From assembly GCA_028821605.1 (NCBI GenBank), contig JAPPFM010000025.1, positions 1-64,000 on the forward strand: DNA of 64,000 nucleotides. Direction: 5' to 3'. This stretch comes from Candidatus Poribacteria bacterium (GTDB lineage: Bacteria > Poribacteria > WGA-4E > WGA-3G). Below the pieces are notes generated by a model that saw only the letters and a list, made by a program, of their open reading frames with translations, was not told where the DNA came from and did not search any database. Of the stretch, positions 42,263 to 62,927 are shown one piece after another (the stretch's first letter is position 1; every line of letters starts with the position of its first letter). Position numbers and translations under genes: made by a program.

Positions 42263-43627
42263 CTATTTATTTTTCTGAACAACGAATGCAAAACGACCTC
42301 CGTGGTCACGATCCTCATTGGATGCATTAAACAGTCTGCCAGGGCGTTCCGCATCTTCGGCTTCAACGGTACCATTTGCAATCAGCCATAGACCGATACC
42401 GATTTCAGGGTGCGGGAATATATCACCCCGTACAACACTGAAAATCTTAGGGAAGCCATCAGGCGTAAGAACAAACGGTTCACTCGCGACGAAAAACTTC
42501 CCCAGCCTCCCTACGGTTGCATAGTGTTGTTGGTCGAGAAATGACAGACGCAGCTGTGCGGCAGTCTCAACCGGACAAGTTTCGAGTCCCATCTGTTTTG
42601 CGCGATCATAAATAGTATCAAGAGTGGCGAGTTCACCTGCAGCAAATCCCATCTCCAGCATAGAAACAACAACGATATCAACCGTTGTCTCCTCTGCCAC
42701 CACCGGAAAATTCGGATTTCCAAGGGCTTGCATGGACCATAGGCTGATCTGGCATTTTTCTTTGATCAGTGCCTCTAAAAGATCAACACCACTCCCATGG
42801 GTTCCGAGTGTTATGGTAAAATCAGCAGCAAAACTCTTTTCATCTTTTGTGTCTTCATCATTGTGCGCAAAGTAAATAACGGATTGGTTGCTGACACTGA
42901 GAATCAATAGGGTTGCTACAACCAAAGCAGTTCCAATAGCTACCCACGGCAAAGATGGGTTCATCTTCGGAGAAGGTGTCGGGGTCATGTCAACAATTTT
43001 TCGCATGATATTCTGCTTTATACTTGCTGATATTTGCACACTACCGAGAACTTCTTGGATCAAGAGCTCCTCTTCTTCTTCTAACCGTTTTCGGGCGCGA
43101 TGGAGTCGAGTCCATACTGTCTGCGCCGATACCCCCAAGAATTCGCCAATCTCTTCCGCTGTCATTTCGTCGAGATAATAGAGCGTCATCACTATTTGCT
43201 GACCCTCCGACAATTTTTCCAAAAGTTTTTTGACGATCTCAAAACGATGTTCCGTTGCTTCTGTTTCTCGCTGTTCCACTTCGTAACGCGCATAAGCAGA
43301 TTCCGCCACTTCTTTCATAGGTGTGTCCTCCAATGATTGCATTGATTCCTCAATTTTGGGTTTGCGTTGCTGCCAATTCTTACAAAGCCGATTCGTAATG
43401 GCACGCAACCACCCAGGAAACGAGCTCGGATTTTTCAACGTTGAAAGGTTTTGATATGCGCGAAGGAAGGTATCTTGTGTAATTTCTTCTGCATAGTGGA
43501 AATCACCAATTTTCCGCCACGCGAGGGCGTGAACACTTCTTTGGTATTTTTCAACTAAAATATCAAATGCTGAGTCGTCGCCTGATAAAACGGCATGAAT
43601 CAATTGAACATCGTCTTCTCTCTCCAC
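42263..43627 (-). CDS. ECF sigma factor fused to a membrane segment and C-terminal domain
   Basis: I choose GTG 43627 because GAGGAGG lies ahead of it at good spacing; an ATG at 43678 would add 17 residues. The 454-residue protein starts with sigma region 2 (about 10-90: 'YAEEITQDTFLRAYQNL', 'FPGWLRAITNRLCKNW') and region 4 (about 133-185: 'MTAEEIGEFLGVSAQTVWTRLHRARKRL'). A single membrane helix (about 226-246) follows, then an outward-facing domain of about 200 residues that I do not recognise ('LRLSFLDQQ', 'EPFVLTPDGFPKIFSVVRGD', 'IGLWLIANG'). The usual partner is a separate anti-sigma factor; here sensor and sigma appear joined. No anti-sigma gene is adjacent. Confidence 0.82.
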   Translation of the reverse strand: MEREDDVQLIHAVLSGDDSAFDILVEKYQRSVHALAWRKIGDFHYAEEITQDTFLRAYQNLSTLKNPSSFPGWLRAITNRLCKNWQQRKPKIEESMQSLEDTPMKEVAESAYARYEVEQRETEATEHRFEIVKKLLEKLSEGQQIVMTLYYLDEMTAEEIGEFLGVSAQTVWTRLHRARKRLEEEEELLIQEVLGSVQISASIKQNIMRKIVDMTPTPSPKMNPSLPWVAIGTALVVATLLILSVSNQSVIYFAHNDEDTKDEKSFAADFTITLGTHGSGVDLLEALIKEKCQISLWSMQALGNPNFPVVAEETTVDIVVVSMLEMGFAAGELATLDTIYDRAKQMGLETCPVETAAQLRLSFLDQQHYATVGRLGKFFVASEPFVLTPDGFPKIFSVVRGDIFPHPEIGIGLWLIANGTVEAEDAERPGRLFNASNEDRDHGGRFAFVVQKNK

Positions 43628-44037
43628 GGAGTTCCTCCTCATAAATAGATTCGGCTGCATTGACATCCACTGAAACATCTAAGTAAGCACTGAGTTTCGG
43701 ACGTTGTGCTTGCAATACAGTCCACACAATTATGTTATGACAATGTTAAAGACACATTTTTTTCCCAAAACCTTACATCACGTGAAAAAAATATTTTGTT
43801 AGGCATTTTTCAAAGATGGGGAAAATTGTAAAATTCAATTTAACTGATCCCAAAACTACTAATTGCGTTTAGTTTTATAGTTTGGAAACTTATTTTTATC
43901 AATACGCAGGTACCCCTTGTAGCATAGACTGTTAGTCTGTGCGTGTATAGGACGCAAACGAAAAGTGGACGCTACAAAAGAGAAAACTAAATAACGCTGC
44001 AGAAAAAATAGCAGAATTATCAGGGGCATTTAATTCT
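43628..44037. other. AT-rich intergenic region with a short palindrome
   Basis: This 410-base stretch upstream of the sigma factor has no gene I can support. It is AT-rich at 43740-43900 and contains the palindrome at 43922-43942. No consensus promoter for the sigma gene was found, so it may use a non-standard one, perhaps its own. Confidence 0.5.
43922..43942. repeat. Short palindrome GCATAGACT/AGTCTGTGC
   Basis: A nine-pair stem including one T-G pair, around a three-base loop GTT. It lies just after the end of the small exported protein gene (44038, minus strand) and could stop or stabilise its transcript. Confidence 0.45.
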
Positions 44038-44310
44038 TCATTTTTTACGCCTATAGCACCTAATAGACCTCTCTCGAAACTTACCACCTCGACTCTCTTC
44101 GGTTTCCTCGTAGGGGCGGTATCTATGTAGAACTGCGGATTCTCTCCTGTCCGCGTCGGGACAAGTGAGCGGTTGACACGGCGGGGGTTGTATTTCGGGG
44201 GTCGGACGACAGGGTTCATGCGCGGCACGTGTGAGGTGCAGCGCGACGCTGAGTGTCGCCACGACGAAGAAAAGCGCGATGGGGCCCCACCGCAAGAGGT
44301 GTGTTTTCAT
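44038..44310 (-). CDS. Small exported or membrane-anchored protein
   Basis: A 90-residue product from ATG 44310, eight bases after AAGGAG (GTG 44319 is an alternative). It has one N-terminal hydrophobic helix (MKTHLLRWGPIALFFVVATL), a Pro/Cys-rich stretch 'EPCRPTPEIQPPPCQPLTCP' and a basic tail 'RSIRCYRRKK'. I do not recognise it. The strong promoter and highly structured leader upstream support it as a real, regulated gene. Its GC-rich make-up differs from the AT-rich surroundings. Two to four cysteines outside the membrane could form disulfides or bind metal. Confidence 0.55.
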   Translation of the reverse strand: MKTHLLRWGPIALFFVVATLSVALHLTRAAHEPCRPTPEIQPPPCQPLTCPDADRRESAVLHRYRPYEETEESRGGKFRERSIRCYRRKK

Positions 44311-44530
44311 GTTAGGCACTCCTTTTTTAGGGGCTGGTCCCTATAAATAACACGCAACGGAAACCCGTTAGCTGCTACAATAGAAACCAGCACTGTCAAA
44401 ACCATTCCTTTTGGCAGTGTTACGCGTGGCAGGTGGTGGTAACACCTGCTGCGCACCCCGAAAACGGGGAGGCTGCCCTGACGCAATCCACGCGGTATTA
44501 GCAAATATGCTTTGGCATGAAATCAACGTC
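44311..44530 (-). promoter_or_regulatory. Long structured leader with three-way junction
   Basis: Between the predicted start site (~44530) and the small gene lie about 220 bases that fold neatly. P1 CGCGTGG/CCACGCG (44423-44429 with 44488-44494) closes a junction of two arms: CAGGTG/CACCTG (44430-44435 with 44443-44448) and TGCG/CGCA (44450-44453 with 44482-44485) capped by CCCCG-UUUU-CGGGG (44456-44469). Downstream in the RNA come an 11-pair hairpin (44391-44419) and AACGG/CCGTT (44356-44369). I do not recognise a known riboswitch class. Confidence 0.5.
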
Positions 44531-44536
44531 ACAGAA

Positions 44537-44565
44537 AGTATACCATAAAAGGTAAAAATTGCCAA
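44537..44565 (-). promoter_or_regulatory. Promoter of the small structured-leader gene
   Basis: On the minus strand TTGGCA (44560-44565), 17 bases, TATACT (44537-44542) with TGG before it. It shares CTTTTATGGTATACT exactly with the promoter at 1345-1373. Confidence 0.8.
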
Positions 44566-45020
44566 ATTTTAAATGTGAATATATAACCTTTACCGCGCGT
44601 CTGGCGAATCACTTTCCAAATCCTACCCAATTTTACCACTTTTTCAGGGGTCCCTAATGAAGTCTGCGAAAGTAAATCAGTCCTGCAGTGAAACCCAACG
44701 CTTTTCTGAGTGCTTTCTTGAAATGTAACAGAAACGCTTTGAAAACAAGTCATGCACCTCACAGAAATTGTCCAAACTATAGTATAAATGTAGGTTGGGG
44801 AATAAAATACAAATATGGACGTAGGTGTTTTGCGTATTTCTGCGGATTTCCCCAGGAAACTCCACCAGCGAAGGAGCCGAACAGGTGCATTCGTCTCTGA
44901 AAGGTTTACATATTTTCATTGAGCGAAGTGAAACCCAAGCTGCACACCGACAGCCGACAACTGACTGCTGACAACCAATAGCCAGATTTTTGTTAATCAA
45001 AAAGCAAAGATTTGATAGAA
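44566..45020. other. Gene-free region with repeat debris
   Basis: No credible gene. Degenerate repeat pieces are visible: CAGTGAAACCCAACGC near 44688, TGTAGGTTGGGG near 44790, GCGAAGTGAAACCCAAGC near 44923, and a half heptad repeat (CCGACAACTGACTGCTGACA) near 44950. They look like remnants of intergenic palindromes. Confidence 0.5.
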
Positions 45021-61193: not shown

Positions 61194-62927
61194 ATGAATT
61201 ATTTGCGATTCGTGTTAATATTGTTTGCTTGTGTTGGTATGTCCCTTGGTGGTGTTTACGCACAAGAAGAAGCTACGAACGGAGGAACCGTTCGAGGACA
61301 GATTACTGACATAACGCCAGCGCAGAACCCGATTGAAGGTGTTGAAGTTAAAATTGTTGCCCAAGATGGCGGCAAGGAATGGACAACAAAAACAGATGCA
61401 GACGGTAATTACAAACACGCTGGACTTCACGCCGGACGTTACCTGATTAGCATATCTAAGGACGGATACGACAAGCGGATTGGGAAACCTGTTACCGTTG
61501 TTGAGGGTGGTGACCATTTTGTCCCGCTCAAAACGGCTAAAAAAGGCAACATCAAGCCGCCCTTTGAACTGCAGCCGGGAAGAATGAGTAGTGTCCTGAA
61601 ACCGCGAATTGAATCCTTGCGTCAACTTCTCAGCGAAAGTATCGGTAAGCGTTACGATTTGGACAAAGCAGCTATCAACACACTTCGTTTGTCAATTCCC
61701 GAATCTGTCGAGACCGCCCTGGAACAGGACAGCAGGAATATACTGGTCTTCGGCAAGGTAGCAGGAGGTAGTAATGTAGCGTTGATCAAAATGTTATTAT
61801 CGCATCCAGTGTGCAAGGCAGCGTTTGCTGAACACTTGAGCGAGGCGCAGCTTCAGGATTATTTGGACTTCACAGAGGCGCGGCGACAGCTCGATCAACA
61901 GGCTGTCGCTCGTTGGATAACCGTGGCATTTGACAAGGAACTTAGTTTGACGGTGGATCAACGCGGAAAAATTGTGAAGTTGCTGCATGGTGCAGCACAG
62001 AATAGGGATTTTCCGGTCTCAATGAGTGCCTTACGGATCAGTCCACAGCAAGCGGTACACTTGGTGCACTATAGATTGAAAATTTCTCTGGATGATATCT
62101 TGAGCGAAGCGCAATCCAAGGTTTGGCAAGGATTGGTTAGCACGAACGCTAACAGAGAGCATTTCGCTGTCTTCATGCCCGAAGCCGGGGCTGAGGTTGT
62201 CGTTGTGGATAAAGTAGATGTGGGTGAAATTGTGGATCCGAACAAAAAGCGTGCGTTTATCCACAAGGAAGCAATCAAGCCTGTCAAGGTAGAGAGAAAG
62301 GTTAACGTAGTGATTAATGAGGTAATAATTGACCCGCCAGGGAAACTGCAACCTTGGATTGAACTTAACCCAGCAGGCACAGCGGCATCTCCAGAGCAAA
62401 TGATGGAAATCGCCGAAGCCAAACTTGTTGCGCATACCGAGTTGTTAGGTTCTCTTGATGAACGTGCTGCTCGACGCTTGGCACTCGTCGCTAAAGGTGT
62501 GGCACAACAGTACACTGAAGCCCAAGACAAAACCCACGACGCGATGGATGAATTGTGGGGAGATGAAGGGATGAATATTGACATTACGGATCATCCGATG
62601 TACCAACAGGTAATCAAAGATGTGCTTTCTGAGGAGGCGTTTGCACAGTATAGCACGTACCAAGCGGAAAGAGAAGTTTGGCATCAACAGGTACTGCGTG
62701 ATTTGGTGGTAGCGTGCATGGATACGCAGCTGCTTTTGGGCGACACACAGCGGGAAGCGTTAGAAACGGCAGCATCGCAATTGATACCCGGTCCGCTTAA
62801 GGAGGAGAAACCAGCGGAGTTTATGTTTTTCCAACTTTTCCCACAGACGGTAAACTTTGAAATCTTGACCCTTTGGCAGCAGAATGAATTTAAACGTGTG
62901 TTCGGTCCAATGATGTGGCGGAGATGA
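61194..62927 (+). CDS. Exported protein with carboxypeptidase-regulatory-like domain
   Basis: A 577-residue exported protein: signal peptide to about 23 (GVYAQ), one carboxypeptidase-regulatory-like beta domain (about 28-110: 'GTVRGQITD', 'IEGVEVKIVAQ', 'TKTDADGNYKHAGLHAGRYLIS'), and a long helical rest that I do not recognise. That part repeats the theme 'LSEAQLQDYLDFTEARRQ..QQAVARWITVAFDKELSLTVDQRGKI', where the LTxxQ pattern recalls Spy/CpxP-type helical hairpins. AAGGAGG precedes ATG 61194, four bases after the last gene. The next gene is a paralogue. Confidence 0.78.
   Translation: MNYLRFVLILFACVGMSLGGVYAQEEATNGGTVRGQITDITPAQNPIEGVEVKIVAQDGGKEWTTKTDADGNYKHAGLHAGRYLISISKDGYDKRIGKPVTVVEGGDHFVPLKTAKKGNIKPPFELQPGRMSSVLKPRIESLRQLLSESIGKRYDLDKAAINTLRLSIPESVETALEQDSRNILVFGKVAGGSNVALIKMLLSHPVCKAAFAEHLSEAQLQDYLDFTEARRQLDQQAVARWITVAFDKELSLTVDQRGKIVKLLHGAAQNRDFPVSMSALRISPQQAVHLVHYRLKISLDDILSEAQSKVWQGLVSTNANREHFAVFMPEAGAEVVVVDKVDVGEIVDPNKKRAFIHKEAIKPVKVERKVNVVINEVIIDPPGKLQPWIELNPAGTAASPEQMMEIAEAKLVAHTELLGSLDERAARRLALVAKGVAQQYTEAQDKTHDAMDELWGDEGMNIDITDHPMYQQVIKDVLSEEAFAQYSTYQAEREVWHQQVLRDLVVACMDTQLLLGDTQREALETAASQLIPGPLKEEKPAEFMFFQLFPQTVNFEILTLWQQNEFKRVFGPMMWRR

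Follow-up and report, generated by a model that had tools for sequence, protein, structure and literature searches.

There is strong support for placing the leader of a small gene in a Candidatus Poribacteria contig in a family of structured RNAs that Rfam 15 does not contain. The RNA is conserved, its helices covary, and its copies have a defined strand, follow a promoter and precede genes on the same strand. The explanation we favor, and consider likely, is that these RNAs are cis-acting 5′ leaders specific to one family of Poribacteria. They probably control the expression of the genes downstream, most of which encode exported proteins. The analysis started from a 64,000-nucleotide stretch of DNA (the window; genome G000, contig C25), in which the RNA lies on the minus strand with the following features.

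44537–44565 (−): sigma-70-like promoter TTGGCA-N17-TATACT, 10 of 12 positions matching, TG before the −10 element
around 44530 (−): predicted transcription start; the RNA runs to 44311
44480–44530 (−): P1, optional 5′ domain, GACGU... (44530–44520) with ...GCGUC (44488–44480), present in the minimum free energy (MFE) structure from the predicted start
44311–44486 (−): conserved RNA core, 174 model positions
44476–44479 (−): AGGG, 5′ strand of the probable closing helix P2, 82% of cells paired
44456–44469 (−): P3 hairpin CCCCG-UUUU-CGGGG, with CG, UA and AU alternatives and many double changes
44424–44454 (−): P4 hairpin GCGCAGCAGGUG...CACCUGCCACGC, pairs 39-57 and 44-52 above the phylogenetic null (E = 0.002 and 0.004)
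44389–44419 (−): P5 hairpin CACUGCCAAAA...UUUUGACAGUG, with an internal C-A mismatch conserved in the family
44334–44388 (−): P6 hairpin CUGGUUUCUAU...AUAGGGACCAG, two pairs above the phylogenetic null (E = 0.04 and 0.045)
44329–44332 (−): CCCU, 3′ strand of P2, which may alternatively pair with AGG of the Shine-Dalgarno sequence (P7) as a putative switch
44319–44324 (−): Shine-Dalgarno (SD) sequence AAGGAG, unpaired with a mean probability of 0.42 across the predicted ensemble
44308–44310 (−): ATG start codon
44137–44310 (−): cassette part of ORF1, a Cys-rich peptide with a hydrophobic N-terminus; the expected stop near 44137 is lost
44038–44310 (−): 90-codon ORF as read in the window, running on into unrelated DNA
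44137–44732 (−): dispersed block of about 590 bp, consisting of an upstream stretch, promoter, RNA and ORF1

Distribution and conserved fold of the RNA

DNA matches to the RNA region, centred on a 122-nt core, were found in 40 of the 98 genomes searched. A covariance model (R1) derived from an alignment of 42 copies (A1) matched 55 of 85 genomes of the Poribacteria phylum. A second model (R2), built on 84 distinct copies (A2) with a structure set by hand, detected the RNA in 56 of the 59 genomes of one Poribacteria family, spread over three genera, with a total of about 368 matches (summed from the per-genome table) and a maximum of 18 per genome; the 26 genomes from other Poribacteria families gave none. 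The relatives carrying the RNA are named Candidatus Poribacteria in public records. The window copy scores 153.6 bits with R1 and, as a member of the training set of R2, 147.1 bits (E = 2.4e-43) with the latter.

Rfam 15, searched at gathering score, had no match at the window RNA or across 19 family loci, and a permissive Rfam search of the window and the family loci yielded nothing credible at the RNA positions. The literature searched, which takes in only a minority of subscription journals, contained no paper describing such an RNA in Poribacteria. Outside this phylum, the P5 pattern gave a few matches, in Clostridia, Verrucomicrobia, Thalassotalea and a viral contig, and these reached only 10 to 25 bits, compared with 147 for the window copy. 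They have little in common beyond the motif searched for, and were treated as probable chance matches. On three clostridial contigs (L193, L220 and L241) there is a P5-like hairpin, GCACUGCCAUA-N7-UAUGACAGC, located after a U-run in two cases, and the rest of the RNA is absent.

The conserved core is composed of P3, P4, P5 and P6 and is probably closed by P2; P1, the GACGU stem that begins at the predicted transcription start, is an optional 5′ domain preceding it. For P2 to P6 in A2, 92.1% of 3087 cells are paired, versus 82.3% with shuffled partners, double changes affect 31 of 38 pairs (17.9 shuffled) and 326 cells (98 shuffled, 37 to 111 in slid structures), the covariation score is 0.312 versus 0.151 shuffled, and sliding the partners by one to three columns lowers the paired cells to 31–44%; these controls are not fully independent, because the structure was chosen partly from the same data. 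Relatedness was addressed by a G-test on 141 copies less than 95% identical, with a null model in which substitutions were replayed along the tree. Four pairs, two in P4 and two in P6, have E < 0.05 and all are complementary, with none in P3 or P5 reaching this level among the 141 copies; compensatory changes thus occur beyond what relatedness explains. The basal GCG/CGC of P4 is paired in 97–100% of these copies and the C-A mismatch of P5 is kept in 125 of them, while pairing in P6 is exemplified by GCUGGUUUCUAU/AUGGAAACCAGC, GCUAACCUAA/UUAGGUUAGC and GCUGGCUAACAUUAU/AUAAUGUUAGCCAGC.

Partner-swap tests, which correct for relatedness only in part, gave p = 8e-13 for P1 (GACGU.../...ACGUC; own partners 18.0, swapped 14.6), p = 1e-4 for P4 and p = 2e-17 for P6. 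P2 (p = 3e-4; strand variants AGGG/CCCU, GGGC/GCCC, GAGG/CCUC and GGAGG/CCUCU) and P7 (p = 9e-4), which use one common strand, are moderately supported. RNAalifold alone recovered just 19 pairs.

The 255-nt strand has a predicted folding energy of −98.5 kcal/mol, versus −73.5 for dinucleotide shuffles (z −5.4, with 0 of 200 as good); part of the RNA is palindromic, and both strands fold well. G-U cells outnumber A-C cells by 233 to 112 overall, by 154 to 7 in P6 and by 56 to 18 in P3, and the minus strand is therefore taken to be the RNA, with the ratio reversed in P4 (17:52) and P5 (6:35). At locus L149, one RNA has its P6 hairpin tandemly duplicated just before the SD. The proposal in the first-pass annotation that the leader is a new structured RNA is borne out by the homologue comparison it had called for (about 368 copies), their compensatory changes (31 of 38 pairs with double changes), the promoter position and the absence from Rfam.

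Promoter and gene context across the family

The same annotation had described a near-consensus promoter and an SD before the small gene; a promoter-like site on the minus strand at 44565–44537, an SD at 44324–44319 and an ATG at 44310–44308 are all present. Across the family, a sigma-70-type site matching at least 9 of 12 positions lies upstream of 118 of 138 copies, compared with 12 of the 131 stretches used as controls. On the same strand, an ORF of 50 codons or more with an SD of at least 5 starts within 350 nt of 86 of 134 copies (64%), versus 18 of 131 (14%) for upstream genes oriented divergently and 2 of 130 (2%) on the opposite strand. A hydrophobic N-terminus is encoded by 75 of these 86 ORFs (87%) and by 3 of the 18 control ORFs, these ORF and hydrophobicity rates coming from our own simple gene finder and cut-off and not from a signal-peptide predictor. 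The RNA thus occupies a non-random position 5′ of same-strand genes. As a pattern of gene order, the earlier idea of an RNA-regulated small exported protein holds for the family; its regulatory half we infer.

Two types of downstream gene recur, and Pfam names neither. ORF1 encodes a Cys-rich peptide of 60–90 residues with a hydrophobic N-terminus, in which C34 is invariant and C41 and C55 are nearly so (17 members). ORF2 encodes a protein anchored in the membrane and bearing an HxHxD..WH motif; H60, H62, D64 and H71 are invariant among 16 members picked partly for that motif. Pfam and solved-structure profiles gave only weak matches to the ORF2 family, with one member at E = 0.04 to Strep_his_triad. 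Genes for N6/N4 DNA methyltransferases follow 14 of 141 copies, mostly RNAs with CGUCAGGGC. In single cases the gene behind the RNA is of the type I/III methyltransferase, GajB-like helicase or DUF499/HmaC-like kind.

These data also bear on the possibility that the RNA is an independent small RNA that acts in trans, is transcribed from a promoter of its own and adjoins genes by chance. Such an RNA would account for the promoter found at most copies and for the roughly one third that have no strong-SD ORF within 350 nt, but would not readily account for the strong bias towards an SD and ORF directly downstream on the same strand, nor for the 19 copies in which the start codon lies at most 9 nt from the end of the core, so that the RNA runs directly into the SD and start codon. 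Moreover, a scan of the window located no terminator where the RNA ends, and L149 (G048:C135, 1437–2493) carries two adjacent paralogous exported-protein operons, both having a promoter and an RNA copy of their own. We therefore regard a trans-acting role as rather unlikely.

Several arrangements near individual copies were also recorded. Two same-strand copies lie about 290 nt apart before one gene at L117 (G036:C32, 1871–2039 and 2159–2329), two others on the same strand lie near each other at L043 (1906 and 3557), and a selenocysteine tRNA (RF01852, 77.7 bits) is found near one copy at L102 (419–508).

Dispersed block and apparent decay of the window copy

The block of about 590 bp containing the window copy recurs at unrelated loci with 82–89% identity. 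There are two full-length copies in G000, the second being 89% identical, together with a third partial copy, and seven full-length copies in G008. Its edges are sharp, identity falling from 0.7–0.9 to about 0.3 at 44137, and different genes follow it. Such properties would be expected of a mobile cassette of promoter and leader that recombination has spread, with a fold that benefits mRNA stability or the element and has no regulatory role. Most copies of the family, however, are divergent yet conserved in fold, and random insertion hardly explains the bias towards exported-protein genes; we thus consider this account of the family unlikely, and retain the cis-acting leader. At 12 homologous aldo/keto-reductase loci, the element is present in G000 and G008 only, and a clean empty site was not found among them because the other neighborhoods differ.

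Position 44137 is close to where ORF1 stops in other copies. Since the repeat ends there, the window ORF continues past it through about 30 codons of unrelated DNA. The 90-codon ORF and hydrophobic N-terminus described previously are therefore present, but the reading frame probably corresponds to a Cys-rich exported peptide of 61 residues that has been extended, the cassette gene having about 61 codons and its stop being lost at the repeat edge. ORF1 in the window has also lost one Cys segment, no ORF2 was seen behind it, and at the orthologous G008 locus (L035) ORF1 is altered differently. Among ten copies, pN/pS of ORF1 is 0.69, indicating weak purifying selection. The next gene, starting about 630 nt away, encodes an ECF-type sigma-factor protein; at 42263–43678, ECF-type sigma-factor regions 2 and 4 are fused to a long C-terminal extension. 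A terminator scan of the window returned two terminator-like sites, one within P6 and the other within ORF1, a number similar to that in shuffled sequences. The window copy looks like a decayed, truncated orphan and a poor one to study, and may be non-functional because its operon is lost.

Adjoining the block, at 44921–44938, is GAGCGAAGTGAAACCCAA, perhaps a short interspersed repeat, with a second copy at 62102 bearing 2 mismatches (0.03 expected).

A candidate switch and its relation to known systems

As functional fold, the three-way junction proposed previously is highly improbable: its first helix (44488–44494 with 44423–44429) has seven perfect pairs and is the MFE structure of an isolated 133-nt fragment, but it is rejected by the partner-swap test, which gives no sign of covariation (own partners 12.4, swapped 12.0, p = 0.33), and is lost when the transcript is folded from the predicted start; its 3′ strand, CCACGCG, is the 3′ strand of P4 in relatives. 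Both strands, CGCGUGG (44494–44488) and CCACGCG (44429–44423), and both arms do exist as sequence. The CAGGTG arm corresponds to upper P4 and the CCCCG/CGGGG stem to P3, and these hairpins stand; neither the pairing of the first helix nor that of the outermost part of the second arm is supported. The first-pass annotation thus appears to have joined real elements wrongly.

Under the cis-acting reading, transcription would start at the sigma-70-type promoter that borders the fold on its 5′ side, and the RNA would adopt P3-P4-P5-P6, closed by P2 and in some copies preceded by P1. The same transcript would include the downstream gene, in most cases the leading gene of an operon for exported proteins, and the RNA would act in cis on that gene's translation or transcription. 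Against this reading stand the third of copies that have no strong-SD ORF nearby and the restriction to a single family, which is unusual for a small-molecule riboswitch. The 3′ CCCU could pair with the 5′ AGGG, forming P2 and leaving the SD free, or, in copies whose gene begins immediately, with the SD, forming P7. Alternatively, the leader segments GGGCA and CCU could bind UGCC and AGG in the region of the SD. This last arrangement is the one in the predicted MFE structure of the window and is exclusive with P2; its GGGCA/UGCC (GGCAG/UUGCC) ring is conserved, lacks covariation by partner-swap (p = 0.15–0.3) and is retained as a possibility. In compact copies the SD is mostly paired by prediction, with a mean unpaired probability of 0.22–0.45. 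This predicted pairing, together with the exclusive arrangement, makes an SD-occluding switch plausible, in which a ligand or protein stabilizing one state would switch translation. In the window, the cassette would have survived and the operon behind it would not.

More tentatively, the RNA may represent a new riboswitch-like class that coordinates exported proteins (Cys-rich peptides and membrane proteins with the His motif) and, within one branch, also DNA methyltransferase and defense genes in response to a common signal. Poribacteria, an uncultured phylum, are known from marine sponges. The structured RNA family described here is well supported, occurs in them in hundreds of copies and delineates a putative regulon of exported proteins. 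If the RNA senses a ligand, that ligand would be a signal of importance to these symbionts; if protein-bound, it would point to the regulator of their exported proteins.

A resemblance to GEMM-type riboswitches, seen by eye, was dropped as no Rfam model matched. Like orphan riboswitch candidates and structured cis-regulatory leaders in general, the Poribacteria RNA is a multi-copy 5′ leader with covarying helices and conserved unpaired positions, a promoter at its 5′ end, a gene start close behind and a possible anti-SD pairing. In contrast to these candidates, it is confined to one bacterial family, its regulatory role is a putative one, and it precedes exported-protein and restriction-modification genes rather than those of one metabolic pathway. 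The short block found at unrelated sites in G000 and G008 recalls dispersed non-autonomous repeats of the MITE or REP type, but differs from these in carrying a promoter, a covarying RNA and an ORF, and in belonging to a family whose copies are mostly divergent and gene-linked.
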